DNA from: a virus
Length of the DNA stretch: 29,517 bases
IMG/VR virus record: IMGVR_UViG_3300009105_000020
Coordinates: 1 to 29,517 of that record
Strand: one strand, 5' to 3'
The position numbers and the translations under genes are program-made. Each line of letters opens with the position of its first letter. Position 1 is the stretch's first letter. The notes under the pieces were generated by a model. It saw nothing but the letters and a program-made list of their open reading frames with translations, was not told where the DNA came from and ran no database searches. Below are positions 687 through 29,324 of the stretch, piece by piece.

Positions 687-709
687 ACGGATCGGAATAG
701 AATAGACAC

Positions 710-737: not shown

Positions 738-763
738 AGTAATCCCTGAAGGAGGCTAGTCAA

Positions 764-925: not shown

Positions 926-958
926 CAAAAGAGAATATAAATTTAGGGGGTTCGTGTT

Positions 959-1915: not shown

Positions 1916-1939
1916 TTTAGACTTGATTGAAGGTAAGAA

Positions 1940-2438: not shown

Positions 2439-2441
2439 ATT

Positions 2442-2897: not shown

Positions 2898-3379
2898 TGA
2901 TAGAAGTAACGCTAGAGGTAGGCGGTGAAGTCCAATTAAAAAGAAAGCTATCGAGATTCGGTAGCTCGTTCAAGAACATTAAACCACTACTCAGGGATAT
3001 AGCGAAGGACTTTAAGAGCATCGAAGCGAAGCAATTCAAATCTCAAGGCTCTTATGGTAGTGGCGGTTGGGAACGATTAAGCTTCTCTTATGCTAAGTGG
3101 AAGAGTAAGAACTATCCAGGCAAACCGATACTCCAGAGGTCCGGGAGATTGATGTCTTCCCTCACAGGTTTTGGATCGGATTACATTGAACGGATGACAA
3201 ACAGTAATATCGAACTCGGTACTATGACACCTTACGCCATCTACCACCAGTCCGTTATGCCGAGAACCAAGTTACCACGCAGACCGGTAATAGAACTCAC
3301 GGAATCGGATAAGAAACGCTGGATGAAGATGGCACAGAGTTACGCCGTAGCTTCGGCTAAAAAGGCAGGGTTGTTATGA
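2897..3379 (+). CDS. Tail completion protein, Mu gpG-like virion morphogenesis family
   Basis: 160 residues. The family pattern is clear: an N-terminal helix LLRDIAKDFKSIEAKQFKSQG, then GGWERLSFSYAKWKS, GKPILQRSGRLMSSLTG, and PYAIYHQSVMPRTKLPRRPV. These blocks mark the phage virion morphogenesis (gpG/tail completion) family that caps or joins the tail to the head. It overlaps the next gene by 4 bases (ATGA). Confidence 0.8.
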   Translation: MIEVTLEVGGEVQLKRKLSRFGSSFKNIKPLLRDIAKDFKSIEAKQFKSQGSYGSGGWERLSFSYAKWKSKNYPGKPILQRSGRLMSSLTGFGSDYIERMTNSNIELGTMTPYAIYHQSVMPRTKLPRRPVIELTESDKKRWMKMAQSYAVASAKKAGLL

Positions 3380-3840
3380 GCTTGACTCTAATAGAGGGCG
3401 CAGTCACAGCCTTGAAGACTTATCTCCAGGCGAACCTTAACGCTAAACTGGCGACCCTTGATACTGAATATAAGGATTTCTCGCTAGAACAGATAAAGCA
3501 TTGGTACACTGGCACGATGCCGAGACAAGTACCGGAGACCCCTTGCGTTGTCCTCTTCGGTGAAGAGTGGGAAGCTATGACCCAGAGGGGAGTCAATCTT
3601 GATGTAAAGAACTATCTATCTATAGTCATATTCGTTTCTGATGACGATGAAGAGACACGCTGGCTAAGGCTGAACCGATACGCCAGGGCTATAGTAGAAT
3701 TGCTACAGGCAGGGGAATCTTCTTACGGCTATGAGCATTTCCTTGAGGGCAATATCGCACTATCGGATATAATTAAGACTCCTGAGGTACTACAGGCAAT
3801 ATCCGTGCCAATATCCTTAATCAAGCAGGAAGCTTACTAG
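3376..3840 (+). CDS. Putative tail terminator, Mu gp37-like
   Basis: 154 residues, start overlapping the upstream stop (ATGA). The order after the gpG-like gene and before the tube gene, the size, and the mixed alpha/beta pattern (ALKTYLQANLNAKL at the start, CVVLFGEEWEAM and KNYLSIVIFVSDDDE as strands, LRLNRYARAIVELLQ as a helix) fit tail terminator or minor tail proteins, which stop tube polymerisation and join it to the neck. Assignment rests mostly on position and pattern. Confidence 0.6.
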   Translation: MSLTLIEGAVTALKTYLQANLNAKLATLDTEYKDFSLEQIKHWYTGTMPRQVPETPCVVLFGEEWEAMTQRGVNLDVKNYLSIVIFVSDDDEETRWLRLNRYARAIVELLQAGESSYGYEHFLEGNIALSDIIKTPEVLQAISVPISLIKQEAY

Positions 3841-3854
3841 GGGGTGAAACTACA

Positions 3855-4568
3855 ATGACATTAGCAGGAAAGAACGCCAGGATATACTTAGGCGGATATG
3901 ATATAAGCGGTAGGTCGAATAAGTTTACTATCCCACTATCACGACCTATGAAGGATATTACAGGCTTCGGGGAAGACGGACATCGTTATTTCCCTCTTAT
4001 GCCGAATGATACATTCGACTTTGATGGATTCTATGATAACCACTCCGATACCACCGGGCTTAGAGCCTGCCTGGATGCCTACAGGAAAACTCAGACCGAA
4101 CTATGTATTCTACTGGGTACAACCTTAGGCGACCCGGCAATCGCCGGGCAGGTCAAGGCTGATAAATATAACCTTGAGTCTCCGGTTGCCGATATGGTAA
4201 CGCTGGCTGGAGCATTTAAGTTTGAAGAGAAAGCCGAAGACGGAGCAGTCCTCTTATTCCCGAAGGCTACTAAGACCTCAGACGGCAACCATACTGTAAT
4301 CGACCAGGGGGCGCAGAGTACAGATGGGGCGAAGGCTTATCTACAGGTCTTTGCCTGTGGAGGCGATGACGACCTCATAGTAAAGGTACAGCACTCAAGC
4401 GATAACTTCTCAGGCGATACCACAGACCTGTTTACATTTTCTACGGCTACAGGTATCACCTCAGAGCAGAAATCAGATACAGGAACTATTAAACGATATG
4501 TCCGAGTGTCCTGGGCTGGCACTCCGACATATTCAGCTACATTCGCAGTCGTATTTAAGAGGCTATAA
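3855..4568 (+). CDS. Major tail tube protein (first copy, extended)
   Basis: 237 residues, preceded by GGGGTGA. Residues 1-130 resemble a tail tube fold: LAGKNARIYLGGYDISGRSN, then RPMKDITGFGEDGHRYFP and a terminal strand set ADMVTLAGAFKFEEKAE. Residues 130-237 add a second beta-rich domain (HTVIDQGAQSTDGAKAYLQV to SATFAVVFKRL) that could decorate the tube surface. The following gene is a shorter paralogue with the same core, so one is probably the tube and the other an accessory or alternative tube subunit. Confidence 0.7.
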   Translation: MTLAGKNARIYLGGYDISGRSNKFTIPLSRPMKDITGFGEDGHRYFPLMPNDTFDFDGFYDNHSDTTGLRACLDAYRKTQTELCILLGTTLGDPAIAGQVKADKYNLESPVADMVTLAGAFKFEEKAEDGAVLLFPKATKTSDGNHTVIDQGAQSTDGAKAYLQVFACGGDDDLIVKVQHSSDNFSGDTTDLFTFSTATGITSEQKSDTGTIKRYVRVSWAGTPTYSATFAVVFKRL

Positions 4569-4586
4569 AAAAGGAGGTAAACAGCT

Positions 4587-5018
4587 ATGGCACTCGAAGC
4601 AGGAAAAGATGTAGTATTCTTACTCGATGATTCAGGAGATACCCAGAGGACACTCACAGGTTACATAACATCCTTTAGAGGTAATTTCCCAGGTCACAAG
4701 CTCATCGATGTAACAGTAATGGGTAGCTCAGGTCACAAGTACGCAAGCGATGAACTGGAGGATAATTCCTTTGACATCGATTTTCTCTTTGACCCGACAG
4801 CCAATACCGGCATCTGGGCGGTACTACAGAGCATCAGAAACTTTGCCACCGCCAGGGATTTCGAAATAGGACCATACGGAAGCACAGCTACCTATATTAA
4901 AATATCCGGTACTTGTTTCCTGGAGAACCTATCGATGGATGCTTCGCCTGGCGATATGGTAAAGCTATCGGCATCGTTTAAGGTAGACGGAACAGTAACA
5001 TTCGGTACTTTTAGCTAA
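4587..5018 (+). CDS. Tail tube protein (second copy, core domain only)
   Basis: 143 residues, with a very strong AAGGAGG site. The blocks ALEAGKDVVFLLDD, GYITSFRGNFPGHKLIDVT, MGSSGHKYASDELEDNSFDI and SMDASPGDMVKLSASFKVDG follow the order of the upstream protein (DITGFGEDGHRYFP, FDFDGFYDN, SPVADMVTLAGAFKFE), so the two are probable paralogues. The strong ribosome binding site suggests high expression, as expected for the main tube subunit. It has no added C-terminal domain. Confidence 0.65.
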   Translation: MALEAGKDVVFLLDDSGDTQRTLTGYITSFRGNFPGHKLIDVTVMGSSGHKYASDELEDNSFDIDFLFDPTANTGIWAVLQSIRNFATARDFEIGPYGSTATYIKISGTCFLENLSMDASPGDMVKLSASFKVDGTVTFGTFS

Positions 5019-5037
5019 AGGCAATCCGTAAGATGCT

Positions 5038-5139
5038 ATGGAGGTATTACTGTTTATGGCAGGATTTATCGGGACTTTCGTTATACTCGGATATATCCTT
5101 AAGAAATTTACAGAGTTAAGAGAGGGAGACAATGGTTAA
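5038..5139 (+). CDS. Tiny membrane protein, 33 aa
   Basis: ATG-started ORF of 33 residues, with one hydrophobic helix (VLLFMAGFIGTFVILGYIL) followed by a charged tail KKFTELREGDNG. It overlaps the start of the tail chaperone gene by 8 bases. The ribosome binding site is weak. It may be a real single-span membrane peptide or merely an upstream leader that couples translation into the chaperone gene. Confidence 0.4.
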   Translation: MEVLLFMAGFIGTFVILGYILKKFTELREGDNG

Positions 5140-5488
5140 AAATAAGAAGAGGGCACTACCTGTAACTACCGAGAAGGTCAAACTGGATGGAGCTTATGAG
5201 GGGTGGGAGTTTGATATGAGAACTAACATCCCCTTCGGTAGCTTCTGCGATTCAATAGCCGAACTCGAATCTACGCCAAACAATGACATTCTTAAAGTAA
5301 AGGAAAGTCTTTATAACATACTGGCTATGCTCTTAATAAGCTGGAACTTTGTAGACGAAAAGGGAGAGCCTATTCCCTGTAACAAAGAGGGCTTTAACCT
5401 AGTTCCGTTTGACCTCTTGAATCTAACAATACTCACAGCCAGGTCGATAGTAGAAACAGTCCCAAAAGTCAAGAACGGCAAATTATAG
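5132..5488 (+). CDS. Tail assembly chaperone, G-like
   Basis: 118 residues, preceded by GAGGGAGA. It lies directly before the tape measure gene, the usual place of the two tail assembly chaperones of siphoviruses (lambda G and GT), which hold the tape measure protein during tube assembly. The size fits the short form. A heptamer C CCA AAA at 5461-5467 is in the correct zero-frame phasing for -1 slippage, and the -1 frame stays open to the start of the tape measure gene, giving the long form. Confidence 0.75.
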   Translation: MVKNKKRALPVTTEKVKLDGAYEGWEFDMRTNIPFGSFCDSIAELESTPNNDILKVKESLYNILAMLLISWNFVDEKGEPIPCNKEGFNLVPFDLLNLTILTARSIVETVPKVKNGKL

Positions 5489-5661
5489 AGGCGTTTCAAA
5501 CAGGGGGTTCATCCGTGCCGTATGAACTAATGAGGGCAGAGATATATAGGATGTTTGGTTACAGCAAGGCGTTAGAGAACACAGATGCCGGTAAGATAAT
5601 CAAACTCTATAAGATGAATACTCTTGCGGATAATATGAGGATGAGCAAGGCGAATAAATAA
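5132..5661 (+). CDS. Tail assembly chaperone GT fusion by -1 ribosomal frameshift
   Basis: The zero-frame codons CCA AAA (5462-5467) preceded by C form the X XXY YYZ slippery heptamer. After -1 slippage reading continues SQERQIIEAFQTGGSSVPYE and ends KANK at TAA 5659-5661, whose last A is the first base of the tape measure ATG. The fused product would be about 176 residues: 112 shared, then 64 of the T part (RAEIYRMFGYSKALEN). The T part has no good start or ribosome binding site of its own. This is the arrangement of lambda G-GT. I see no obvious pseudoknot downstream. The -1 part runs from 5461. Confidence 0.75.
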
Positions 5662-6962
5662 TGGCTAAGAACGAAGTAACTACTAAATTCATAGGTAAAG
5701 ACCAGACATCGCAGACTGTAGATAAGGTCGAGAAAAAGCTCGATGGGCTATCTAATAAGTGGAAGGTAGCAGCAGCAGCGATGGTTGCGACTTCTGCTCT
5801 TCTGGCTGCCGGAATGTTAAAGGCTGTAAAGGCTGCAGCGGATGAGGAAGCGGGAATCATCAGGCTATCTATAGCTATGAAGAATGTAGGACTTAGCTAC
5901 GATGATAGCCGAGAGAGCCTTGAAGCGTGGCTAGACGCTAACCAGCAATCAACCTCATTTGCCGATACAGAGCAGAGGTCGGCTCTGGCATCGCTGGTTC
6001 GAATGACCGGCGATTTAGAATCCGCACAAAAGATGCTTACGCTTGCTATGGATGTGGCAGTAGGCACAGGCAGAGACTTGGCATCAGCCAACACCCTCAT
6101 TATGTACGCTATGGGTGGTAACTGGGGTATGTTGGAACGGTATATCCCGGCTATTAAAAAAGCTCAAACCGAACAGGAAAAATGGAGGATATTAAACGAA
6201 CTATTCGCAGGTCAAGCTACTGAGTTCGGAGCTTCAATGGCAGGGCAATTCGCTACTCTTGAAAATAACATCGGAGACCTCAAGGAAGCTTTCGGTACTG
6301 CCTTATTCCCTGCCGTTCAAAGTGTTCTTGACCCGGTTAAAGACTTCGTTACCTGGATGAAGGAACATCCGGAAGTAACCAAGATGGCAGCGCAGATAAC
6401 GCTTCTAACAGCAGGGCTTCTAGGACTAGGCGGAGGCTATATGCTTGTCAGCAACATAATCAAGTCTACATTTATACCTGCTATGAAGGCATCCGTAGTG
6501 TTTATCTGGACTAAGGTAATACCGGCACTAACCGCTAAACTAGCTCTTCTAATGGCTACCCTGGCAGCGATGGGTCCGGTTGGATGGGTAGCTCTGGGAG
6601 TGGCTATGGCATCGCTGGCTGCGATAGCAGTATCACTCCCTGAATTCATAGAAAATATATCAGGCGTTAAAAACACAGTAACACCATCACCGGGCGGAGA
6701 CCGCCCATCAGGTAGGGCGTCAGGCGCACCTCCGCTAATGGATAACGGAGGGGTAGTACCGGGCGCACCTGGTAGCCTCCAGCCAGTTTATGCCAGAGGC
6801 GGAGAGGTCTACTCTGGTTATCCGCCTAAGCTTGGAGGAGACACCATCATAATACAATCTCAGGCGTTTATGGGAAGCAGGGAAGAGGCTCGTAAGTTCG
6901 CCGAATTGATATTCTCAGAGGGCAGAAGAAACAATCTCCGAACAGTAGGGAGAACAGCTTAA
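5661..6962 (+). CDS. Tail tape measure protein
   Basis: 433 residues. An N-terminal helical region (MAKNEVTTKFIGKDQTSQTV, then DKVEKKLDGLSNKWKVAAAA) is typical of tape measure proteins. Two long hydrophobic segments follow, at about residues 250-275 (ITLLTAGLLGLGGGYMLVSN) and 285-325 (LALLMATLAAMGPVGWVALG). The C-terminus is Gly/Pro-rich and ends in a conserved-looking IIIQSQAFMGSREEARKFAE block. At about 0.15 nm per residue it predicts a short tail of about 65 nm. It overlaps the chaperone stop by 1 base and the next start by 1 base. Confidence 0.85.
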   Translation: MAKNEVTTKFIGKDQTSQTVDKVEKKLDGLSNKWKVAAAAMVATSALLAAGMLKAVKAAADEEAGIIRLSIAMKNVGLSYDDSRESLEAWLDANQQSTSFADTEQRSALASLVRMTGDLESAQKMLTLAMDVAVGTGRDLASANTLIMYAMGGNWGMLERYIPAIKKAQTEQEKWRILNELFAGQATEFGASMAGQFATLENNIGDLKEAFGTALFPAVQSVLDPVKDFVTWMKEHPEVTKMAAQITLLTAGLLGLGGGYMLVSNIIKSTFIPAMKASVVFIWTKVIPALTAKLALLMATLAAMGPVGWVALGVAMASLAAIAVSLPEFIENISGVKNTVTPSPGGDRPSGRASGAPPLMDNGGVVPGAPGSLQPVYARGGEVYSGYPPKLGGDTIIIQSQAFMGSREEARKFAELIFSEGRRNNLRTVGRTA

Positions 6963-8458
6963 TGGCAGCGACTTACCAGGTACTACTCGACTTAGATGGC
7001 GATGGAGTCTATGAAGAGGACATCACCAGCTATTGCCAGAGGGCATCTTTTGAGAGAGGTAAGGATGAAGAACTCAACGATGCTATGTCTGGCATCTGCG
7101 AACTGCTCCTGGTAAATACTGATAACCGATTCTCACCTGAGAAGAGTTCCAGTCCATACTACGGAGACTTGAAAACCAGGAGGGGCGTTCTGCTAAAAGC
7201 GACATCCCCTAATGCCGTCAATCTCTTTACTGGTTTTTTATCGGACCTTAACGATAGCCCTCAGCATCGTAAAAGGACAACCGAGTTCTACTGTGTAGAT
7301 GGTATGGAAACTCTTGCCAGGACTGATATAAGGACTCCGCTTTATAAAGACTACCTGGATGGCGACCTGATAGTAGAACTGCTCGGATTAGCTGGATGGA
7401 GTGAGGGCGCAGCCTGGATTCTCGATACCTCGGAACTAGGCTCAGAGACTATTCTAGGCTTTATGGCAACTAACCTTGATGACGGACAAGATACAATCCC
7501 TTATGCTTACTTCCACAAGGTAAAGGCATTAGACGCAATCAATGAGATTAAGAATTCAAGCTTAGGCTTCTTCTATGTAAACGGATCTGGCGAGGCTGTC
7601 TATGAAGACAGGCATCACAGGCTCTTATCCCCTCACGATACAGTACAGGCTACCTTCAATGATACTATGGCGGATATAAAACCCTATCACAGAGACAAGG
7701 ATATTATAAATGAAGCAATCGCCACTTTCATACCGAGAACCATAGCAGGAGGCTTAACTGATGCCTGGACACTCCAGGGAACGCCTCTTATCCCTGTCGG
7801 TGAATCCATAACCATCGAAGCCGATTTCTCTTACGCCTATGACGATATGGAGAACCCTGCATCGACAACAGACTATACGGCTAACTCCGCATCAGGAGGC
7901 GGAGGCACGGACTTGACCGGGGATATAACCATCACGCCAACGATATGGGCTAAGGGAGCCAGGTTCGTAATCACCAATGGAGCAAGCCAGCCTGCTTACA
8001 TCACCCTGCTAAAGATAAGGGGCAAGCTGATAACCGAAGAGGATAATATAGTCCGGACCGCCTATGACAACGACTCCCAAAGAGAATACCAGAAAAGAAG
8101 CCTTAATCTAAATGGGGATTTTCTTATATCCTCTCCGGTAGCCCAGGACTTCGCTGATTATGTAGTGGGCGGATGCAAAGACCCTAAAGCCAGGTATCAG
8201 ATTATTTTACATTCTAAAGGCGATACCACCGGAACTATCCTGGGCAATATACTAACACTGAATATATCCGACCGCATCCGTGTAGTATCTGCCCGGCTCG
8301 GACTTGATGACGAGTTCTTTATAAACAAGATGCGGCACGAGATAGATAACTTCGGTAAAGAGCATCGGGTGACTTATGATATAGTAAAAGCAGAAGACGA
8401 GGAATACTGGGTAATGGATTTCTCGGAACTGGGTACTAATACAATGTTGGCATATTAA
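6962..8458 (+). CDS. Tail tip or baseplate hub protein
   Basis: 498 residues, with its start overlapping the tape measure stop (TAATG). It begins with a strand-rich segment YQVLLDLDGDGVYEEDITSY, then INEIKNSSLGFFYVNGSGEA and YEDRHHRLLSPHDTV, a pattern seen in proteins of the gp27/hub-like tail tip group. The C-terminus has beta-rich segments (LTLNISDRIRVVSARLGLDD, FFINKMRHEIDNFGKEHRVT), like hub proteins that close the tube at the distal end. No hydrolase motif is seen. The position after the tape measure supports a distal tail or hub protein. Confidence 0.65.
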   Translation: MAATYQVLLDLDGDGVYEEDITSYCQRASFERGKDEELNDAMSGICELLLVNTDNRFSPEKSSSPYYGDLKTRRGVLLKATSPNAVNLFTGFLSDLNDSPQHRKRTTEFYCVDGMETLARTDIRTPLYKDYLDGDLIVELLGLAGWSEGAAWILDTSELGSETILGFMATNLDDGQDTIPYAYFHKVKALDAINEIKNSSLGFFYVNGSGEAVYEDRHHRLLSPHDTVQATFNDTMADIKPYHRDKDIINEAIATFIPRTIAGGLTDAWTLQGTPLIPVGESITIEADFSYAYDDMENPASTTDYTANSASGGGGTDLTGDITITPTIWAKGARFVITNGASQPAYITLLKIRGKLITEEDNIVRTAYDNDSQREYQKRSLNLNGDFLISSPVAQDFADYVVGGCKDPKARYQIILHSKGDTTGTILGNILTLNISDRIRVVSARLGLDDEFFINKMRHEIDNFGKEHRVTYDIVKAEDEEYWVMDFSELGTNTMLAY

Positions 8459-8471
8459 AGGGAGGGTAACA

Positions 8472-8903
8472 ATGGTACAAGTAGACAAGGTAAATACTGG
8501 CAAGATAAGGACTGCTGAGGATATTCTAGGGCGAAGGCGGAGGAGACCTTTCAAGAGCTTCTCCGAATTCTACCGGCACTATGCCAGGCGGAGTCTATCC
8601 GTGTCTCCGGAAGACCTATACCCTGACACGATTCTTGCTCCAAGAGTCAATCACGGCAGATGGATTATAGACTGTCCGTTCTGCTCCGGGGCAGATTTCT
8701 ACTGGCAATCGAGTCCGTTCTTCTTCTGTACCTCTTGCGGAAACAACTATACAGATAAGGTGATACCGGTCAAGGTTACTAAGAATAAGGAGAAGATTGA
8801 AGCTATCCTTATGCGTAGACCTAACGAAGTGAATAGGAACTGGGAGCTAGGGGAAACCATCAAGCAATTAGAGTGGGAGAATAAGGACAGAGGGGTAAAG
8901 TAA
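8472..8903 (+). CDS. Zinc-ribbon protein in the tail module
   Basis: 143 residues, preceded by GGGAGGGT. A four-Cys ribbon is visible: DCPFC at about residue 72, then CTSCG about 20 residues on. The N-terminal part is Arg-rich (RRRRPFKSFSEFYRHYARRS). The C-terminal 40 residues are a charged helix. Proteins with this layout occur between the tail tip and fibre genes; the function is unknown. A DNA- or protein-binding assembly factor is as likely as a virion component. Confidence 0.6.
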   Translation: MVQVDKVNTGKIRTAEDILGRRRRRPFKSFSEFYRHYARRSLSVSPEDLYPDTILAPRVNHGRWIIDCPFCSGADFYWQSSPFFFCTSCGNNYTDKVIPVKVTKNKEKIEAILMRRPNEVNRNWELGETIKQLEWENKDRGVK

Positions 8904-8904
8904 G

Positions 8905-9324
8905 ATGGCTTGGACAGCACCTAGAACCTGGGTAACAGGCGAGGTCGTAACGGCTGCGCTGATGAATACGCACGTTAGAGATAATCTACTGGCGGTTCAG
9001 GGATGGATGGATGACTGTAGCCACTCAGAACCTTCAAGGGCTTTAGACACTATTTATCAAAATACTAGTGGGAAAATAAAAGTTGTATCTGTAAGTATAA
9101 CTACCACAGCTGAGGAAGTTGAAACGGTAGAATCTCTCACAGACTCAGCTACACCACCTACTACTGTTATTAACAAACAGGGCTCGGCAGATAGCACCTC
9201 AGGGGCACTTCGCTTCTCTATGACTTTTATAGTGCTAGTTAACCATTACTATAAAGTTGCTATTAGCACTGGAAGCCCTACCTTGCTTGAATGGCACGAA
9301 TGGGATTTACTAGGTAACAGTTAA
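8905..9324 (+). CDS. Putative tail fibre or receptor-binding-related protein
   Basis: 139 residues. The start AWTAPRTWVTGEVVTAALMN followed by THVRDNLLAV is a recurrent N-terminal motif of phage tail fibre or tail-tip appendage proteins. The rest (residues 50-139) is a beta-rich domain, NTSGKIKVVSVSITTTAEEV to YKVAISTGSP, like small receptor-binding heads. Base composition shifts to more A and T than in the flanking tail genes, consistent with horizontal exchange of host-range domains. The start is one base after the upstream stop. Confidence 0.65.
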   Translation: MAWTAPRTWVTGEVVTAALMNTHVRDNLLAVQGWMDDCSHSEPSRALDTIYQNTSGKIKVVSVSITTTAEEVETVESLTDSATPPTTVINKQGSADSTSGALRFSMTFIVLVNHYYKVAISTGSPTLLEWHEWDLLGNS

Positions 9325-12674: not shown

Positions 12675-12682
12675 CTTATTTT
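12675..12682 (+). repeat. Right target-site duplication CTTATTTT
   Basis: Identical to 9998-10005 and directly abutting the right inverted repeat. Confidence 0.9.
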
Positions 12683-12703
12683 ATCTATTTATTGTAATAC
12701 CAC

Positions 12704-12732
12704 TTGACAACCACTAAGTGATATGTTATTAT
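12704..12732 (+). promoter_or_regulatory. Early promoter 1 with CACTAAGTG operator-like palindrome
   Basis: TTGACA (12704-12709), 17-base spacer, TATTAT (12727-12732). The spacer holds a perfect palindrome CACTAAGTG (12712-12720). The same layout recurs at 15200, 16368 and 21056. Confidence 0.75.
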
Positions 12733-12761
12733 TATACTATAGATAAAGAGGGAGGTAGTGA

Positions 12762-13850: not shown

Positions 13851-14555
13851 ATGGAGAAGGAAACCACCACAGGAATAGGAACACCGGAAGAGGCAATAGA
13901 GATAAGGGAGCAGGAAACAGCAAAGATAATAATATCTCCTGAGAAAGAGCCTGTTATCCTTAAGCTCTACGAAGAGGCGCAGACTATACTGCACTGTGCC
14001 GAAGACAGGAACATCAAAGCAGACTCGGACCTCATTGTATCTACCAATGACTTAAACATCATATCAGTCTACAGGAAATCCCTGGAGGAGCATCGCAAGA
14101 GATACACCACGCCAATAAGGGAATATCTACAGAAGATAAACGATAGCTTCAAGTCTATTTCCGAGCCCCTCACACAGGCGGAACAGATTACCAAGCGGAA
14201 AGTTAGTGTATGGCTTACTGAGGTAGAACGAATCCGCAAAGAAGCCGAAGAGACTGCCCGACTCGAAAGAGAACTGGCAGAACGGAAGCTTAAAACCACC
14301 GGGGAGATTGTAGACCTTAAGGAACAGGAGCTTCCGGTAGAACCACGCAAGAGAGTTATAACTGGCACAGGCACTATCTCTAAACGAATCAACCGCAAAT
14401 GGGAGCTTGAAGACATCAATAAAGTACCCAGGGAATACCTTGTCATCAACGGACCGGCTATAACCAAACTCGTCAATGCCAAGATACCGAGCATCCCCGG
14501 TATCCACATCTGGGAAGAGACATCCATAGTAAGTAAGCCGAGAGTCGTAAAATGA
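13851..14555 (+). CDS. Coiled-coil early protein, putative recombination-associated factor
   Basis: 234 residues, with GGGGGAAA before ATG. A long helical coiled coil covers about residues 65-160 (YRKSLEEHRKRYTTPIREYL, LTEVERIRKEAEETARLERE). The C-terminal domain has RKWELEDINKVPREYLVING and PGIHIWEETSIVS, a pattern I know from phage proteins encoded near ssDNA-annealing and SSB-like genes. An OB-fold-like protein follows at 15734. A role in recombination or replication is inferred from this; no catalytic motif is seen. Confidence 0.6.
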   Translation: MEKETTTGIGTPEEAIEIREQETAKIIISPEKEPVILKLYEEAQTILHCAEDRNIKADSDLIVSTNDLNIISVYRKSLEEHRKRYTTPIREYLQKINDSFKSISEPLTQAEQITKRKVSVWLTEVERIRKEAEETARLERELAERKLKTTGEIVDLKEQELPVEPRKRVITGTGTISKRINRKWELEDINKVPREYLVINGPAITKLVNAKIPSIPGIHIWEETSIVSKPRVVK

Positions 14556-14595
14556 GTGAGAGACTACACAATGTAAGAGAAGAGGAGGTATAAAG

Positions 14596-14799: not shown

Positions 14800-15180
14800 A
14801 TGAGAGAGATAAAGTTCAAGGCTTGGGAAGGACGCCGTAAAGAAATGGATTACATAAATGACCTCTATTGGTTTGAGGAAAATGGGGTTAGTGACGGTGC
14901 GGGTGATGGGCTTTATGGTAATTACAAGATTATGCAATACACAGGACTAAAAGACAAGAATTGTAAAGAGATATATGAAGGGGATATAGTTGAGTGTGTT
15001 GATATGCACGATAGCAATATAGATTATTGGATTGTTAAACCGCCAAGATATAAGGTTTACTGGAATGACGAATGGGCTTGCTTTGAAATAACTGGAATGG
15101 GTATGCCAGATGATATATCTAGATATTGGGAAGTCATCGGCAACATATACGAGAACCCAGAGTTGGTAGTGAAGGAGTAA
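14800..15180 (+). CDS. YopX family protein
   Basis: 126 residues. The start MREIKFKAWEGRRKEMDYIN and the central block MQYTGLKDKNCKEIYEGDIV followed by a strand series ending WEVIGNIYENPEL are diagnostic for the YopX family, common in phages and prophages. The molecular role of YopX proteins is not established. The gene is more A+T-rich than the neighbours, consistent with a mobile accessory gene. Confidence 0.85.
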   Translation: MREIKFKAWEGRRKEMDYINDLYWFEENGVSDGAGDGLYGNYKIMQYTGLKDKNCKEIYEGDIVECVDMHDSNIDYWIVKPPRYKVYWNDEWACFEITGMGMPDDISRYWEVIGNIYENPELVVKE

Positions 15181-15199
15181 GGAGTAATGAAGATAGCAC

Positions 15200-15228
15200 T
15201 TGAATTCTACTTAGTAATATGCTATTAT
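15200..15228 (+). promoter_or_regulatory. Early promoter 2 with TACTTAGTA palindrome
   Basis: TTGAAT (15200-15205), 17-base spacer, TATTAT (15223-15228). The spacer has TACTTAGTA (15208-15216) followed by ATATGC, closely matching the spacer at 12710-12726. Confidence 0.65.
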
Positions 15229-15244
15229 TAGCAGGAGTAAATTA

Positions 15245-15461: not shown

Positions 15462-15614
15462 ATGTTAAATATAATCAAAAGACTTTTCGGCAAACCAGAA
15501 GAACCTAAGGTATCAGTCCTTTTAACTGTAAGTCCCCGGACACTACGGAGAACTAAGGTCAGGCTTAACGAACTGAGGACTGTAGCCTTTAAGAAAGCAG
15601 GGTTTATAAAGTAA
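15462..15614 (+). CDS. Small basic protein, 50 aa
   Basis: 50 residues, with AGGAGGAAT before ATG. Strongly basic (MLNIIKRLFGKPEEPKVSV, RTLRRTKVRLNELRT). The stop codon is at the 5' base of a 9-bp inverted repeat (15614-15649). It may bind nucleic acid; family not recognised. Confidence 0.55.
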   Translation: MLNIIKRLFGKPEEPKVSVLLTVSPRTLRRTKVRLNELRTVAFKKAGFIK

Positions 15615-15649
15615 TAGGCTAGAGAGCCGGGAGAAGCTCACTAGCCTAT
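15614..15649 (+). other. Nested inverted repeat (RNA hairpin or operator)
   Basis: ATAGGCTAG (15614-15622) pairs with CTAGCCTAT (15641-15649), and inside it GAGC (15624-15627) pairs with GCTC (15636-15639) around an 8-nt loop. No T-run follows. It could be a regulatory RNA structure or a protein-binding site before the OB-fold-like gene. Confidence 0.55.
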
Positions 15650-16612: not shown

Positions 16613-16912
16613 ATGCCAGAAGTGAGGGTAAACTTACTCAACATCAGCCATCTAACCACTTCTACCAAGCTGGTAATCGACAAAGAGGGCAACGCCGAAC
16701 AGGTAACTAAGTTCTCGTTTGAATGCGTAGCTCCGCCATCAGAGGTAGCCCGGCTACTCTACTTTCAGAAGCGTAGACAGGATTTAGATGTAGTAATCAA
16801 GTCGCCTCAGGGAGAACTCGACCTCCGGATGATGCCAGTCAATATAAAGACCGGAGAGATAATAGAATCGGCCTCAGGATGTAATCTAAAGAAGGGGGGC
16901 AAGAAGCCTTGA
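16613..16912 (+). CDS. Hypothetical early protein, 99 aa
   Basis: 99 residues, with GGGAGGAAA before ATG. Beta-rich: VRVNLLNISHLTTSTKLVID, QVTKFSFECVAPPSEVARLL, LDVVIKSPQGELDLRMMP. The helix VARLLYFQKRRQ is the only clear helix. It overlaps the DnaD-like gene by 4 bases, so it is probably part of the replication unit. Function not recognised. Confidence 0.65.
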   Translation: MPEVRVNLLNISHLTTSTKLVIDKEGNAEQVTKFSFECVAPPSEVARLLYFQKRRQDLDVVIKSPQGELDLRMMPVNIKTGEIIESASGCNLKKGGKKP

Positions 16913-17673
16913 GTAACAACAAGGAAATGCTAAGAGCATTACTGGGTCAAAGGGTGGTGGCTTATCACCCTGTGCTTTCTAAAGTAATGGGGAGAGCCAG
17001 TTACGGTATCTGGCTCAGCCAGATTCTTTACTGGGATAACATAAAAGCCGGGGGCTGGTTCTACAAATCAGCCAGGGACATCATCGGGGAGACCGGCATC
17101 ACCGAAAGGGAAGCTAAGACAGCAAAGGTCGAGGCTGTAAAACTCGGAATAGTTGATGTAGAGGTAAAAGGACTGCCACGAGTAACCCATTACCTTGTCA
17201 ATTACGATGTTTTATCCACCCTCATTGAGAGGTCACTAACTTTACGAGAGGAAGTGACCAACAAGTTGGACACCGTTGTCCAACTAGGTGATACAACGCC
17301 GTCCAACAGTTCAGTACAATCCCCCTCGCAAAACCGACCCCATATTACACACAAGATTACTACAAAGAATAATGATGATATAGATATATATAAACTATAT
17401 GAATCTAACATAGGGCTACTAACCCCTTTGATAGAAGAAGCCCTGAAGAACCTTGAAGACGAATACGATCCTGTTATGATTAAAGATGCTTTAGAGATTG
17501 CCTGTGAAAGAGGGGCGAAAAACCTACGCTATATCCAGGTAATCTTATCTAACAGTAAATCACAAGGCTATGTATCTAAGTTCAGGGACGGCAAGGAAGT
17601 AAACTCCAAGAGGCTCGGAGAAGACCCTGAAAAATACATCAAGGGCAAATACGGACATATGGTACAGAGATGA
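16909..17673 (+). CDS. DnaD-like replication initiator
   Basis: 254 residues. The N-terminal part (about 1-105) has a winged-helix pattern: RASYGIWLSQILYWDN, GGWFYKSARDIIGETGITER, LGIVDVEVKGLPRVTHYLVN, as in phage replication initiators. A polar linker (about 105-165) separates it from a helical C-terminal domain, LLTPLIEEALKNLEDEY to YIQVILSNSKSQG, typical of the DnaD/DnaB_2 family. Such proteins open the origin and help load the host helicase. The linker DNA holds inverted repeats and an AT-rich tract (17231-17411), an origin-like layout. Confidence 0.8.
   Translation: MSNNKEMLRALLGQRVVAYHPVLSKVMGRASYGIWLSQILYWDNIKAGGWFYKSARDIIGETGITEREAKTAKVEAVKLGIVDVEVKGLPRVTHYLVNYDVLSTLIERSLTLREEVTNKLDTVVQLGDTTPSNSSVQSPSQNRPHITHKITTKNNDDIDIYKLYESNIGLLTPLIEEALKNLEDEYDPVMIKDALEIACERGAKNLRYIQVILSNSKSQGYVSKFRDGKEVNSKRLGEDPEKYIKGKYGHMVQR
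17231..17411 (+). other. Candidate replication origin inside the initiator gene
   Basis: Repeats: GGTCACT (17231-17237) with AGTGACC (17253-17259); GTTGGAC (17265-17271) with GTCCAAC (17278-17284); a further GTCCAAC at 17301-17307 and a near copy GACCAAC at 17256-17262. An AT-rich tract follows at about 17341-17411. Iterons followed by an AT-rich region in the linker of the initiator gene is the design of the lambda origin inside gene O. Confidence 0.6.
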
Positions 17674-23228: not shown

Positions 23229-24656
23229 ATGACTTTTGTATCGCTGGAAAACTACATACCGGAGAAGGTTGAGTTCTCCGGTAGCTTCTTTAGCCCGGCG
23301 GACCTGGCGGAATCAATCTCAGGTGGAGACTGGAAGCGTTACGACCATCTTGATTTAATCAGCGATAAGATTGCGGATATACGCAATAAACCTCTTCGCC
23401 TCATAGTCTCAATACCGCCAGGTCACGGCAAATCAGAACTTATATCCCACTATACGCCAGTCTGGTATCTATCCGAGTTCCCAGATAAACGAATCGGACT
23501 GGCTACATACGAATCAAACTTCGCAGCGTTCTGGGGAGAAGAATCACGAGACACCATAACCGAACACAGCGATAGGCTCGGTATCGAACTCAAAAGAGAC
23601 ACCAAAGCTAAATCATTCTGGAGAATAGCAGGTCATAAAGGATATATGTTCTGCGCCGGTGTCCGAGGTCCGATGACGGGTAAACGCTTCAACCTGCTTA
23701 TCATCGATGACCCTATTAAGAACATAGCCGAAGCCGAATCAGCCGTCTACAGGGAAGCTACCTACAAGTGGTGGCTTACAGTAGCGAGAACCAGAATGTA
23801 TCAGGATGGCTCGATTATCCTTATTATGACTAGATGGCACGATGATGATTTAGTAGGCAGGATTATAGAGAACTCACCTGAGGACTGGGATTATGTCCGT
23901 CTACCGGCTCTGGCAGAGGAAGACGATATACTCGGCAGAGAACCAGGCGAACCGCTTTGCCCGGATATGTTTGATACTGATTCCCTAGGCGTTCTAAAAG
24001 AGGGATTTGGCGGTACTAACGGAAGATACTGGCTTGGACTTTACCAGCAGAGACCATCGAAGGAAGAGGGAACACTCTTCAAGATGGACTGGTGGCAATA
24101 CTATACCGAGCTACCCGACATCCTAGTAAAACGGCAATATTGGGACACAGCTTATAAAACAAAAGCCACCTCCGATTATAACACCTGCCTAACCCTGGGG
24201 AAGACTGAAAAGGGAATCTATGTTCTCGATCTCTACCGGCACAAGCTGGAATACCCGGAGTTAGAGAGGATGGCGCAGGCTCAATATAACCTGCATCTAC
24301 CCTCTTCTGTAAAGGTGGAGGATGCTGCGTCAGGTCAAGCCCTGATCCCATCACTTAAAAGAAAGACCGGAATACCAGTCACTAAGATAACCGCCAAGGG
24401 AAGCAAAGAGCAGAGGGCAAGCCTAATTACCGGCATCTGCGAAGCGGAGAGGGTATTCTTGCCACAGAACGCCTCCTGGCTGGCAACATTCCTTGATGAG
24501 ATGTCTAAGTTCCCGGCTGGTAAGCACGATGATATAGTAGATGTATTCTCCTATGGAGTAGATGACATCTGGCAACCGATGGCGAAAGTAGACCAGGAAT
24601 TCAAACTAAAGAAGAAAGAACTCGAATTCAAGAGGCTCAGTGATAAGGAGTTCTAA
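23229..24656 (+). CDS. terL: Terminase large subunit
   Basis: 475 residues, full length. ATPase: Walker A PPGHGKSE (63-70), Walker B LLIIDDP (156-162), coupling IMTRWHDDDL. Nuclease (RNase H-like): YWDTAYKTKATSDYNTCL with the first Asp, VEDAASG, and KHDDIVDVFSYG near residue 430 with the last acidic pair. It pumps DNA into the prohead through the portal and cuts concatemers. It belongs to the group with an HGKS P-loop. The start ATG follows GGCGG, weaker than most. Confidence 0.95.
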   Translation: MTFVSLENYIPEKVEFSGSFFSPADLAESISGGDWKRYDHLDLISDKIADIRNKPLRLIVSIPPGHGKSELISHYTPVWYLSEFPDKRIGLATYESNFAAFWGEESRDTITEHSDRLGIELKRDTKAKSFWRIAGHKGYMFCAGVRGPMTGKRFNLLIIDDPIKNIAEAESAVYREATYKWWLTVARTRMYQDGSIILIMTRWHDDDLVGRIIENSPEDWDYVRLPALAEEDDILGREPGEPLCPDMFDTDSLGVLKEGFGGTNGRYWLGLYQQRPSKEEGTLFKMDWWQYYTELPDILVKRQYWDTAYKTKATSDYNTCLTLGKTEKGIYVLDLYRHKLEYPELERMAQAQYNLHLPSSVKVEDAASGQALIPSLKRKTGIPVTKITAKGSKEQRASLITGICEAERVFLPQNASWLATFLDEMSKFPAGKHDDIVDVFSYGVDDIWQPMAKVDQEFKLKKKELEFKRLSDKEF

Positions 24657-24659
24657 AGC

Positions 24660-24688
24660 TTGACAAGGCGAGAAGTTGGCATTATAGT
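24660..24688 (+). promoter_or_regulatory. Promoter of the portal/head operon
   Basis: TTGACA (24660-24665), 17-base spacer, TATAGT (24683-24688), directly after the terminase stop. It lacks the CACTWAGTG-type site, so it is probably controlled differently from the four early promoters. Confidence 0.7.
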
Positions 24689-24743
24689 CAATATAAGGGA
24701 AATCAATACGAGAGGGAGAGAATAAGGGATATGAGTTAATCGA

Positions 24744-26804
24744 TTGAAATTAAAACTCGGACCTCTATCTGTTTCATTCGCAGAGAAAGATAATCGTTCT
24801 CAGGCTACTATGGGAGAAGTAGGAGCTTCGGGAACTATTCTTTTATCAGGACAGCTATCAGAAGAGGAATATAACGCTGACCTCAGGGGTGGCAAAGCCG
24901 TTAAAGTCTTTGACAGAATGAGGCGTTCTGATGGACAGGTTAAAGCCGTGCTACAGGTATGCGAACTGCCGTTCCACTCCGCAACCTGGACAGTACAACC
25001 GGCAAGCGAAGACCAAGCTGATGTAGATGTAGCAAAGTTCATTGAACGCAATCTCTTCGATGGAATGTCTATCACCTGGGATTCTTTTTTACATCATATT
25101 CTAATGATGCTCCCCTTTGGTTATAGCGTCTTTGAGAAAGTCTACGAGATTGACAAAGACGGATATATCAAGTGGCGGAAACTAGCCCCCAGGCTACAGA
25201 AGACAATCTGGAAGTGGAATCTTGATGTCCACGGCGGATTAGATGGAGTAGAACAGCTAGTCTTCAAGCAAGGCACTTACAAGTTCATACCTATTAAAGC
25301 AGATAAGCTCCTGGTCTTTACTCACGAGAAAGAGGGAAGCAACTTCGAAGGAACATCGGTACTCCGTTCCGCTTATAAGCATTGGTACTATAAAGACCAT
25401 CTATACAGGATAGACGGCGTTGCCTCTGAGAGACACGCTTTAGGCGTTCCGACTTTCAAGCATCCGCCGGAAATTTCCCCGGAAGAGAAAGCCCGGCTTG
25501 AAACGATGGGCGAATACCTCCAGGCTCACGAGAAGATGTATATAAGGCTTGCCGACTCTTATGACTTCGACATTAAAGGGCTTCAAGGCTCTATCAAAGA
25601 CCTTATGCCGTCAATAGAACACCACGACAGGATGATAGCCAGGTCGGTACTGGCTCAATTCCTCAACCTGGGTACTACTGGCGTAGGTAGTTTCGCCCTT
25701 GCGAGAGACCAGAGTTCCTTTTTCTTAATGGCACTCAAATCCTTAGGGAAAAATATATGCGAGACCATAAACAGATACGCCATACCTCAGCTAGTCGATT
25801 TCAACTTCAATGTAGAGGCTTACCCTAAACTGGTGGTAAGCGGATTAGAAACCAGGAACATCGATACCTATATCAAGGCTATAGTGGACACTACAAACGC
25901 AGGGGCATTGACTATTGATAAACAGGTCAGGGATTCCTTGAGAGGTACGCTTGACTTACCCCCGGAGCCGGAGCAGGAAGAGGAATCCGAATTCGAAGGC
26001 TCGGAAGAGAAGCCTAAGTTCCACCGGGCTAAGACATTCGCAGAGGGCTTCGTAGCTTTTGAAGAGATAGAGAAGGTACTCAAGAAGGGCGAAGCTGAAT
26101 TCATCACGGAGACTAAGGAAGTGATGGATAACCAGATAGCTAACCTGGCGGATGTAACTATAAAGGCGATAGAGACAAAGAACCTGGATAAGCTGGATGA
26201 TATTGAAGTCCGCTATAAGACTTCTATGATAACAAAGATGACAGGAGTTCTCTCCGATATGTTTAAGTACGGCAGACTCCAGGTTAAAAAAGAACTATCA
26301 CTCCAAAAGAATATAGAACTTGCCGAACTGCCAGTACCTATCGACCCATCCGAGCTGCCTATCGTAAAGGAATTTATCAAAGCCAGGGCTAAGGCATCGG
26401 CAGGGGTGATGTCCAACAAGCTAAAGCAGTTCGTTACATTCGAGGCACTCCGCCAGATAAAATCAGGCATCGTAAACAAGAACTATCTACAGACAGGCTT
26501 AACAGGGCTTTCAGACCGGGAGCTTATAGCCTCTGCCGGATTCTCTGTAGGCGAGGCTTTTAACTTCGGCAGGTCTTATGAAGCCGACAAGGTTAAGGAT
26601 GATATTGACCGAGTACAATACTCAGCCTTGATGGATGGCGGAACTTGCTCGGAGTGTATGCCACTGGATGGCAAGGAATGGGATTACAGCGACCCACAGA
26701 CAGCCGAGTATCAAGCGGGCAACCCTAAATGCCTGGGCGGTACACGATGCCGGTGTGTGTTGGTATTCATAAGCAAAGCAGAGAGCCCGGCGACAGTAAG
26801 ATGA
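24744..26804 (+). CDS. Portal (Mu gp29-like) fused to a MuF-type minor head protein
   Basis: 686 residues, far longer than a portal alone. Residues 1-410 match DUF935/Mu gp29 portals: FDRMRRSDGQVKAVLQVCEL, HHILMMLPFGYSVFEKVYEI, HEKEGSNFEGTSVLRSAYKH, FLNLGTTGVGSFALARDQSS. After an acidic linker (PPEPEQEEESEFEGSEEKPK) the C-terminal part is a Mu gpF/SPP1 gp7-type domain with QYSALMDGGTCSECMPLDGK and KCLGGTRCRC (about 635-671). Portals form the dodecameric DNA entry ring; MuF proteins are minor head proteins. Start is a TTG without a strong ribosome binding site; an ATG at residue 23 is the alternative. Confidence 0.85.
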   Translation: MKLKLGPLSVSFAEKDNRSQATMGEVGASGTILLSGQLSEEEYNADLRGGKAVKVFDRMRRSDGQVKAVLQVCELPFHSATWTVQPASEDQADVDVAKFIERNLFDGMSITWDSFLHHILMMLPFGYSVFEKVYEIDKDGYIKWRKLAPRLQKTIWKWNLDVHGGLDGVEQLVFKQGTYKFIPIKADKLLVFTHEKEGSNFEGTSVLRSAYKHWYYKDHLYRIDGVASERHALGVPTFKHPPEISPEEKARLETMGEYLQAHEKMYIRLADSYDFDIKGLQGSIKDLMPSIEHHDRMIARSVLAQFLNLGTTGVGSFALARDQSSFFLMALKSLGKNICETINRYAIPQLVDFNFNVEAYPKLVVSGLETRNIDTYIKAIVDTTNAGALTIDKQVRDSLRGTLDLPPEPEQEEESEFEGSEEKPKFHRAKTFAEGFVAFEEIEKVLKKGEAEFITETKEVMDNQIANLADVTIKAIETKNLDKLDDIEVRYKTSMITKMTGVLSDMFKYGRLQVKKELSLQKNIELAELPVPIDPSELPIVKEFIKARAKASAGVMSNKLKQFVTFEALRQIKSGIVNKNYLQTGLTGLSDRELIASAGFSVGEAFNFGRSYEADKVKDDIDRVQYSALMDGGTCSECMPLDGKEWDYSDPQTAEYQAGNPKCLGGTRCRCVLVFISKAESPATVR

Positions 26805-27025
26805 AACTCGTAAAAGACTTTGGCGTAAGAGCATTACTGGCTACCATAGCCGGGGTAGGATTCTATGGAATACTCTTCTATGTTATAGCCACTATGGAAC
26901 TGGACATAACCACTATCATAGCCCTGGTAGGATTGGCTAATTCTCCCTGGCTGATGGCAGTAGGCTTTTACTTCGGTATTAAGATAGGACAGATAATAAA
27001 GGAGGGCAAGGACAATGCCGTATAA
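26801..27025 (+). CDS. Two-span membrane protein in the head operon
   Basis: 74 residues from ATG 26801, which overlaps the portal stop (ATGA); a longer reading from 26729 would lie inside the portal gene. Two hydrophobic segments: LLATIAGVGFYGILFYVIAT and IIALVGLANSPWLMAVGFYF, then a charged tail IIKEGKDNAV. A membrane protein among head genes is unusual. A holin-like or superinfection function is possible. Confidence 0.65.
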   Translation: MKLVKDFGVRALLATIAGVGFYGILFYVIATMELDITTIIALVGLANSPWLMAVGFYFGIKIGQIIKEGKDNAV

Positions 27026-28541
27026 AACTATCAAAGAACTGCCTGAGGCTTTCAAGAATCTACCGGATGAAGCAAAGACTATAGCTATGAATGTAATCAA
27101 TTCGGCACTTGACGGCGGATCAGATGAAGCGTCTGCGTTCAAACAAGCCTGGGGAGCTATAAAGAAATCCTATAAACAGGATGATGACGGTAACTGGACC
27201 AAGCTCGATGAAGCCCTGGAAACAGTAGATATAACCGGAGTAGAGATACTGGCTACAGGTACTTGGAAGGGCTACCCAGAATCTAAGACATATAAGAAGA
27301 ATGACCTTAAAGCAGCAGTCAAATCTTTTAATGAACTATCTGGCAATAAGAAGCTTAACTACGAACCTCCGATTAAGCTCGGTCACGACGGCAACCAGAA
27401 GCTTTTACAGAAGGATGGACTGCCCTCTGCCGGATGGGTATCATCCCTTAAGGCAGTAGGGAGCAAACTGGTGGCGGACTTCAAGGATGTCCCTAAGAAG
27501 ATTGGAGACATCATATCAGCCGGTGGCTATAAAAAGGTATCAAGCGAACTTTATCATAACTACGAAATAGCAGGTAAGAAATATCCACTAGTTCTAAAAG
27601 CCGTAGCTCTTCTCGGCGGAGATATACCGGCGGTAAAAACCATCGCCGACATCCAAACTAACTACTCCGAAGGCGATATGGAGAATGTAGATACAGTAAT
27701 CTACGAATTCGGCGAAGAGGTCAAGGATAACAGAGAGCTGGTAAAGGCTGTCTTTGCCAGGGAGTACGGACTCGCTGAGGATGAAGAGCTACATAAAAAG
27801 ATAGATAGCGTCTATAAGGCGTTCAGTGATAAATTCAGCAACAATGATGTCGCAGAGCCAGGGTGCTACATAAAGGAGGTCTACACTGATTATGTAATTG
27901 CGTCTGGTAAGAAGGGTGAACTGATAAAGATTCCATACTCCGAAAAAGACGGAGTGATTGAATTCGACACCGATAAAACCGCTAAGGTCGAAAAGGTATA
28001 TAAGGTAATCGGTGAAACCGCTTCGGTCCAGGGGGAATCGCCAGTCGATTCCGCTTCAACCGGAGAAGGGGATAATAAGCATAAGGAGGTCGAAGAAAAG
28101 ATGCTTAAAGAAACAAGGGAAATACTGGGCTTGGCTGAGGAAACCAAAGAGGAAGATGTCATCAATGCCATCAAAACCCTTAAAGCCAAAGCCGACACTA
28201 AAACGCCTGCCGATTCCCTAGCGGAAAAGGTAGACGGACTCGACACAAAGCTTAGAGAGAATGAGGCATCCACTATGGTAGCCCAGGCTATCACGGATGG
28301 CAAAATCACGCCTAAGCAGAAGGAATGGGCAAGCGATTACGCAAAGAATAATCCTGAAGGATTTATCGCCTTTACTGAGAACGCCTCTAAGGTCATTGAC
28401 CTTGAAGAGTCCGGCGGAGAGGGTGGAGACACTTCTGATGTAGCCCTCACCCAAAAGGACATCGAGGTCGGCAAGACTATGGGTATCTCTGAAGAGGAAT
28501 TGCTTGCCGAGAAGAAATCAGAAATCGAGGAGGCAAAATAA
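27015..28541 (+). CDS. ChaB-prohead protease-scaffold fusion (Mu gpI-like)
   Basis: 508 residues. Residues 1-62 are a ChaB domain (MPYKTIKELPEAFKNLPDEA, FKQAWGAIKKSYKQDDDGNW). Residues about 70-220 match Mu gpI-type prohead proteases (GVEILATGTWKGYPESKTYK, LGHDGNQ, GWVSSLKAVGSKLVADFKDV, KKVSSELYHNYEI with a candidate Ser). An inserted segment holds KEVYTDYVIASGKKGELIKI. The last 150 residues are a helical scaffold (VEEKMLKETREILGL to AITDGKITPKQKEWASDYAK). It guides capsid assembly and then clears the scaffold. Confidence 0.8.
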   Translation: MPYKTIKELPEAFKNLPDEAKTIAMNVINSALDGGSDEASAFKQAWGAIKKSYKQDDDGNWTKLDEALETVDITGVEILATGTWKGYPESKTYKKNDLKAAVKSFNELSGNKKLNYEPPIKLGHDGNQKLLQKDGLPSAGWVSSLKAVGSKLVADFKDVPKKIGDIISAGGYKKVSSELYHNYEIAGKKYPLVLKAVALLGGDIPAVKTIADIQTNYSEGDMENVDTVIYEFGEEVKDNRELVKAVFAREYGLAEDEELHKKIDSVYKAFSDKFSNNDVAEPGCYIKEVYTDYVIASGKKGELIKIPYSEKDGVIEFDTDKTAKVEKVYKVIGETASVQGESPVDSASTGEGDNKHKEVEEKMLKETREILGLAEETKEEDVINAIKTLKAKADTKTPADSLAEKVDGLDTKLRENEASTMVAQAITDGKITPKQKEWASDYAKNNPEGFIAFTENASKVIDLEESGGEGGDTSDVALTQKDIEVGKTMGISEEELLAEKKSEIEEAK

Positions 28542-29324
28542 ATGACTGCTTTAGCTGCGGATGTAGAAAGAGCACGAAAACAAGAAGGGCTGAAATCTCT
28601 TCTTATGGGAACGGATATAATCTATAAAGGTGGTTTGGTTACCACCGATGCTTCTGGCTTGGCGTTAGCAGGACAGGCTACAGCCGGGCATAAATTTGCC
28701 GGGGTCGCTGCCGAGAAGGTAGATGATTCCGACGGAGCAGGTACTGAGTGGTGTAGAGTCTTTACCAGAGGGCTATTCAAATTCACGGCTACTTCTATTA
28801 CTCAAGTGATGGTCGGGCAGATGATGTACCTCCAGGATGACAATACGATTGACGATGTACCGGCTACGGTATCTATACCCTGCGGTGTACTGGTTGAATA
28901 TGTATCAACAACCTCTGGATGGATTGACATTGCTCCAGCCATAACCCTGGGTCAGAAATTCCAAAACGAAATGAGTAACGAGCTTGACTTCGTTACCAAG
29001 ACCGATAACTATACCTGTACTGTAAAGGATTCGGGTACTCGTTTCGCCATCGCCACCGATGCCAAGGCTTTTACCCTCCCGGCGACCGTGAAAGGTCTGG
29101 TATATGAGTTCTGGAACACAGGAGCAGCGGGAAATAACATCATCACCATATCACCTAACGCTGCGGATTGTATCGCTGCGCCTAGCCTCACTAACACCGA
29201 TAACAAAGACCTCATAAACACGAAGGCTACGGCTGACTACGGCGATATGGTAAGGCTGGTCGGAGACGGCTCGGCAGGATGGGTCGCAACGAAACTAAAC
29301 GGCGTTTGGGCTAAGGAAGGTTAA
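28542..29324 (+). CDS. Capsid decoration protein, DUF2190-like N-terminus
   Basis: 260 residues, starting right after the scaffold stop with GGAGG upstream. N-terminal 110 residues: YKGGLVTTDASGLALAGQAT, HKFAGVAAEKVDDSDGAGTE, FTATSITQVMVGQMMYLQDD, the pattern of small capsid decoration proteins (DUF2190, often between scaffold and capsid genes). Residues 150-260 form a second beta-rich domain (NYTCTVKDSGTRFAIATDAK, TLPATVKGLVYEFWNTGAAG), seen in other phage surface proteins. It probably coats or stabilises the shell. Confidence 0.75.
   Translation: MTALAADVERARKQEGLKSLLMGTDIIYKGGLVTTDASGLALAGQATAGHKFAGVAAEKVDDSDGAGTEWCRVFTRGLFKFTATSITQVMVGQMMYLQDDNTIDDVPATVSIPCGVLVEYVSTTSGWIDIAPAITLGQKFQNEMSNELDFVTKTDNYTCTVKDSGTRFAIATDAKAFTLPATVKGLVYEFWNTGAAGNNIITISPNAADCIAAPSLTNTDNKDLINTKATADYGDMVRLVGDGSAGWVATKLNGVWAKEG

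Follow-up and report, generated by a model that had tools for sequence, protein, structure and literature searches.

A stretch of viral DNA of 29,517 nucleotides from an IMG/VR record (hereafter the window) contains a gene for a DnaD-like replication protein in whose middle part short repeats are followed by AT-rich DNA, an arrangement raising the question of whether the phage starts its replication within the very gene that encodes its initiator. An earlier note, made from the sequence of the window, had proposed such an origin in the linker between the two domains of the protein, by analogy with gene O of phage lambda. In-gene origins are already known from lambda, SPP1 and Tuc2009. Supported by the in-gene repeats of relatives, the geometry of the sites in the window, a neighbouring array of 12-mers and the order of elements in lambda, we consider it highly probable that the site described below is the phage's replication origin and of the lambda type.

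The virus record is classed as linear by IMG/VR and may be incomplete. Genes for terminase, portal, protease and head lie at its right end and tail genes at its left (1-9000 and 23229-29324), so that the record may be circularly permuted and represent a nearly whole genome. DNA similarity to named phages was confined to short pieces of the YopX gene and a 75-bp piece shared with Erwinia phages. Cumulative GC skew rises almost without break across the window and has no turning point, and DnaA boxes with at most one mismatch are not enriched, the window having 26 where 42 would be expected; four of the 26 lie in or beside the proposed origin region of the gene.

The initiator gene and its product

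The gene occupies 16909-17673 on the plus strand, starts with TTG and encodes 254 amino acids, arranged as an O-like winged-helix N-domain, a linker and a C-domain of the DnaD/DnaB_2 type. Its designation as a DnaD-like initiator gene in the earlier note was borne out by profile matches: residues 14-156, comprising the N-domain and the linker, matched phrog_9773 ('replication initiation O-like') with an E value of 6.8e-23, and residues 162-221 in the C-domain matched Pfam PF07261 (DnaB_2) with an E value of 1.1e-7 and 31.9 bits (cut-off 22). In addition, the N-domain matched the DnaD-like loader families phrog_186 and phrog_6493, and no match to Pfam Phage_rep_O (PF04492) was obtained at E values up to 1.

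Using an alignment with 40 relatives, we built a structure model in which the winged helix is confident (pLDDT 91-98 over residues 21-120), residues ~130-160 are of low confidence and the helices at 160-219 reach a pLDDT of about 70-81. The best Foldseek match of this model in the PDB was a DnaD model (9a5c_B, E 6.4e-4), and the structural list included the plasmid Rep initiator domains 4pql, 4pt7 and 5kbj (Z 7.8-8.6) as well as the DnaD N-domains 2vn2 and 2v79 (Z 7.6-7.7); its other PDB entries were generic winged helices (Z 7.6-9.4), and apart from the DnaD and Rep initiator domains the list pointed to no specific relative. The winged-helix domain and the helix following it (residues 14-126; 16948-17286, plus strand) form the putative iteron-binding domain, and the DnaB_2/DnaD-like C-domain (residues 160-221; 17386-17571, plus strand) is proposed to contact the helicase or its loader. 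No helicase family was matched among the 30 ORFs of the window that were scanned, in keeping with the use of a host helicase.

Repeats in the initiator gene and in its relatives

The inverted pair GTTGGAC (17265-17271) and GTCCAAC (17278-17284) and the third copy, GTCCAAC (17301-17307), named in the earlier note are all present, the first two making a perfect 9-bp inverted repeat, AGTTGGACA-CCGT-TGTCCAACT, at 17264-17285. By simple counting, such a cluster is only mildly unusual. When the codons of the gene were shuffled 5000 times, some 7-mer occurred three times within 80 bases in 83 cases, and the window holds five clusters of this kind at about four places; four near-copies of an 8-mer, as seen in the linker, are reached by 8 of 100 codon shuffles, and perfect inverted repeats with an arm of 9 and a loop of 3-8 number three in the window, with 73 of 2000 gene codon shuffles holding one. 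The frequency of three-copy clusters speaks for protein-level or chance repeats, that is, for a low-complexity coding linker whose DNA has no function. As the cluster stood out so little, we examined relatives of the initiator.

Single-protein scans for close relatives of the initiator yielded none in viral contigs or genome contigs, the same kind of scan gave no relatives for ORF 15704, and N-domain identity did not exceed about 40% in any relative recovered. Alignment with five distant homologues led to the best 80 of 311 loci in viral contigs and to 21 in genomes. Counting these five seeds, N-domain matches were present at 106 loci, 93 of them as closed ORFs, of which 60 remained after removal of near-copies. 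The linker repeat test was run on 59 of these, L175 being too short. Relatives of the terminase were found at 80 loci at least, and a weak initiator match was present in only 1 of the 30 of their records searched.

In 27 of the 59 relatives, no more than one codon shuffle in 100 equalled the repeat cluster of the linker, compared with 3 of 59 for an N-domain control. Self-matches at a lag of 23 numbered 1341 in linkers and 21 in N-domains, followed by lags of 46 and 69, and those at a lag of 12 numbered 466 and 33, respectively. With a half-site matrix derived from the relatives, 50 of 56 genes gave a total of 357 sites, at distances of 23 bp (116 cases) or 22 bp (9 cases), and an inverted partner at +9 was the commonest inverted offset (101 cases), such that the half-sites make dyads like CAAAC-TA-GTTTG. 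The check suggested in the earlier note, an alignment of relatives, thus shows repeats that are kept despite the drift of the linker.

We scored this geometry (maximum 21) by asking of each 7-mer how well it is repeated in inverted form at +9 and directly at +22/23 and +44-46. The initiator gene of the window scores 18 of 21 at 17256 (GACCAAC, GTTGGAC, GTCCAAC, GTCCAAC), a value reached by none of 1000 codon shuffles (maximum 16), and 17256 is the top geometry site of the 29.5 kb on both strands, every other place scoring 15 or less; the relatives score 13 to 21 under the same rule. The arrangement starts with a half-site absent from the earlier note, GACCAAC at 17256-17262 (plus strand, half-site 1). 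The three repeats named there stand as half-site 2, inverted and reading GTCCAAC on the minus strand at +9 from half-site 1, half-site 3 (plus strand), 22 bp past half-site 1, and half-site 4 (plus strand), 23 bp past half-site 3, with half-sites 1 and 2 forming a 16-bp dyad at 17256-17271. Together they encode residues 116-133, which cover the last part of the helix that follows the winged helix as well as the beginning of the linker, and the AT-rich tract extends to the first residues of the C-domain; the original placement in the linker is to be corrected accordingly.

A further inverted pair assigned to the origin in the earlier note, GGTCACT (17231-17237) and AGTGACC (17253-17259), does exist, but its role in the origin found no support: the pair is out of register, inverted pairs of at least 7 nt are common in the gene (30 pairs), and it was rejected as an origin part. 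Elsewhere in the window, between listed ORFs, AGGAGTAA was observed in three close copies, which may be ribosome-binding sites, together with an inverted repeat of 14 nt (arms 93% complementary, 8 nt between them), at 15173-15241 and 15614-15649.

The relatives' half-site matrix misses the half-sites of the window, which score up to 1.4 against up to 13.1 at unrelated places, and the form CC(C/G)GCAAACTA seen in relatives does not occur in them. The half-site letters vary among the relatives too. Geometry and place are thus common to the group and the sequence that is read is not.

The perfect hairpin at 17264-17285 could also be an RNA element, or the initiator could control its own transcription from these sites, autoregulation by initiators being common. 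However, the sites lie mid-gene and not at a promoter, the relatives keep a tandem array spaced by 22-23 bp rather than a single hairpin, and the 12-mer array and AT-rich tract that adjoin the sites would be left unexplained, such that we regard an operator or transcript element at this position as very improbable.

A conserved 12-mer beyond the dyads

Directly past the dyads, 56 of the 60 relatives carry a 12-mer, AGAGAnTAC(A/T)(A/C)(A/C), with 146 sites; the truncated L175 and L179, L184 and L186, which have other linkers, are without it and were counted as misses. The copies usually stand two to four in tandem, with a spacing of 12 (62 times) or 11 (21 times), and 12-mers scoring 9 or more number 151 in these genes against 38 in 392 kb outside, an in-sample count. 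The 12-mer also accompanies initiators without a Pfam DnaD match. Exact DnaA boxes near the arrays of the relatives amount to 4 in 22 kb, compared with 31 in 401 kb elsewhere, counts too small to be of use.

In the common reading frame, the Glu codon within the 12-mer is GAG in 118 of 120 cases, against 40% elsewhere, and the ANT codon specifies a varying residue (I 42, T 35, N 31, S 16) with T as its third base in 123 of 124. There are also 21 copies in another reading frame, encoding GDYT-like peptides. When viral contigs were scanned for two tandem copies on the basis of DNA alone, at least 120 stretches matched, and 66 of the 80 listed loci lay in N-domain ORFs (68 of the 80 in a first scoring), and 49 of 58 did so among the matches listed after removal of near-copies; the other ORFs include L196, L200, L228 and L231, whose linkers are, by eye, repeat-rich and initiator-like. 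A control pattern, specifying the same peptides by other codons, matched 68 loci, none of which fell in initiator ORFs of this kind. With synonymous bases that stay constant where the amino acid changes, and with 0 of 68 for the synonymous control, the 12-mer is, as judged from its codons, kept by constraint on the DNA and not on the peptide. These observations argue against protein-level or chance repeats, as do the protein-keeping codon shuffles of the window's gene, which fail both the geometry test (0/1000) and the array test described below (1/2000), and we consider that explanation exceedingly improbable.

The combination of this initiator and an in-gene array is not confined to phages: it was also observed in a Calothrix plasmid (L084 / L173), where it adjoins a DnaB helicase gene, and in the cyanobacterial genomes L170 and L174. 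No description of the conserved 12-mer was found in the literature searched, a coverage outside which most of the older lambda-origin papers fall, and AGAGATTAC, searched as text in the literature, gave among the matches listed none on phage origins by title.

For the window itself, we used a softened array matrix built from the relatives only, the window being left out. The best three-copy site with spacing 12 on both strands is 17340-17375 (plus strand), CCATATTACACA CAAGATTACTAC AAAGAATAATGA, with a score of 17.7 against 13.2 for the next site, a score reached by 1 of 2000 gene codon shuffles and by none of 60 random 29.5-kb sequences. This putative unwinding element consists of three diverged copies in register that do not match the consensus exactly; by two-copy score it ranks third in the window, and none of its single copies is strong. 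A nearly identical string is present in L129 (24 of 26 bases compared with 17346-17371, by eye), and a pattern made from the window's form of the array was found at 17 loci, nine with the N-domain, three with the C-domain and five others, the ORFs at the three C-domain loci matching the C-domain of the window protein at E values of 8e-4 to 2e-3. Separately, the highest score for a single 12-mer anywhere in the window belongs to an isolated, near-perfect copy of the relatives' motif, AGAGACTACACA, at 14559-14570 (plus strand; 17.9 bits), just past the stop of the gene at 13851-14555 and with no second copy adjoining; being a lone 12-mer without an array, it was rejected as a rival origin.

The roughly 70 AT-rich bases reported beyond the repeats were confirmed, as 17340-17411 holds 78% A+T compared with 56% for the whole gene. 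It is one of two places in the window where a 72-bp stretch has at least 78% A+T, the other being 12675-12749. The least stable 60-bp duplex of the window is 17353-17412, with a nearest-neighbour sum of -60.9 (mean -80.0, next -64.1).

Divergence of the window's 12-mers from the family consensus would also be in line with an inherited in-gene origin that has become weakened or spare, the main start of replication lying elsewhere, at a second origin, in recombination-dependent replication or on an unrecorded part of the genome. The single full dyad with two further half-sites and the possibility that the virus record is a fragment point the same way, and SPP1 has two origins according to passages of a published account (PMC6316719). 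On the other hand, the half-site geometry of the window (18/21) is as good as that of many relatives (13-21), the tract has the lowest stability of the window, and these features occur together at no second place. We hence regard a spare origin as unlikely. Repeats at the same place in relatives, a geometry reached by none of the 1000 shuffles, an array ranking top of the window and the lowest duplex stability argue together for the locus in the initiator gene as the phage's probable replication origin. Points against it are the failure of the relatives' matrix on the window's half-sites, the lack of relatives closer than about 40% identity, the divergence of the 12-mers, the near-perfect copy at 14559, a GC skew that gives no indication, and a virus record that is linear and may be incomplete.

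Known in-gene origins and a model for opening

The parallel with lambda drawn in the earlier note holds, in that the annotated lambda iterons lie in the middle of gene O and are directly followed by an A+T-rich tract, the same order as in the window. The lambda iterons start at 39034, 39054, 39078 and 39101, a spacing of about 20-24 bp that is like the one in the window, and lambda O and the window protein have PHROG families 9773 and 678 in common. In contrast to the window protein, lambda O matches Pfam Phage_rep_O (5.7e-36); the iteron sequence of lambda is a different one, and lambda uses P as helicase loader, whereas no P-like match was found among the 30 scanned ORFs of the window. When the three-copy 12-mer model was applied to the whole lambda genome, the best plus-strand site was the ori tract (39126, score 13.7), which ranks second overall behind a minus-strand site of 15.7 and fits the 12-mer weakly. 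The O gene of P22 was not picked up by this model, and TP901-1 gave no array.

In lambda, P22 and HK446 (L189 / L330 / L332), ACACAAAAGACA...ACAAAAGA was seen by eye to be common and to lie directly past differing iterons, which suggests a possible counterpart of the 12-mer array and a tract kept as sequence. Passages of a study on lambda-type O proteins (PMC7466680) report that these proteins bind A+T-rich single strands and that replacement of the AT tract leaves iteron binding unaltered.

The rep gene (orf16) of the Lactococcus phage Tuc2009, annotated in its record as encoding a DnaD-like initiator and as 'contains origin of replication', resembles that of the window in carrying, within its coding sequence, repeats that are followed by a second array of purine-rich repeats. 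This second array differs, consisting of a tandem (A)GGATAG / GGTTAGG motif (L327, 7486-7545) and not of the 12-mer, and the C-terminus of the protein corresponds to Pfam Rep_Org_C, unlike that of the window protein. For the Bacillus phage SPP1, the likeness is to the published description rather than to the sequence: in the passages available (PMC6316719), the initiator binds direct repeats inside gene 38, at oriL, beside an AT-rich unwinding element, and, unlike what is seen in the window, there are also an oriR and the phage's own loader and helicase. At Bacillus subtilis oriC, a DnaD recognition element is described in parts of a further study (PMC10201434) as pairs of 5'-TnnT-3' opposite the DnaA-trios. 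As set out there, this element is a short repeated motif of the unwinding region, as is the 12-mer, and is read on one strand by a DnaD-family protein, but the 12-mer exceeds it in length and information content; by analogy, the oriC element is a precedent for single-strand reading with a different motif.

Comparison with these systems leads us to a model in which dimers of the winged-helix domain would bind the GWCCAAC half-sites, two of which make up the complete dyad and two of which are additional, at spacings of 22 and 23 bp that correspond to roughly two turns of the helix. By wrapping or straining the DNA, the bound initiator would open the tract of low stability next to the half-sites (17340-17412), which includes the diverged 12-mer array, after which the DnaD-like C-domain might help to recruit the replicative helicase of the host or the loader of that helicase.

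As for the family, we lean, by a little, towards the view that a large group of phage initiators and those of some cyanobacterial plasmids have a common tandem 12-bp element beside differing iterons, and that opening involves recognition of the tract as a specific sequence by something conserved rather than A+T content alone, the window being a diverged member. Candidate readers of the 12-mer would then be the C-terminal part of the initiator or a factor of the host, such as its helicase, the helicase loader or a protein that binds single strands.

Overall, these results place an origin, with high probability, on the genome of an uncultured phage from its sequence alone. They also provide a transferable signature, 22-23-bp dyads and then tandem 12-mers in the linker of the initiator, by which the origins of many phages and prophages should be located. 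The conserved 12-mer is the part worth following, as it makes directly testable the old question of whether a lambda-like opened tract is merely A+T-rich or is read as sequence. If the view of a common element is true, the member found in the window shows how far the 12-mer element can drift.
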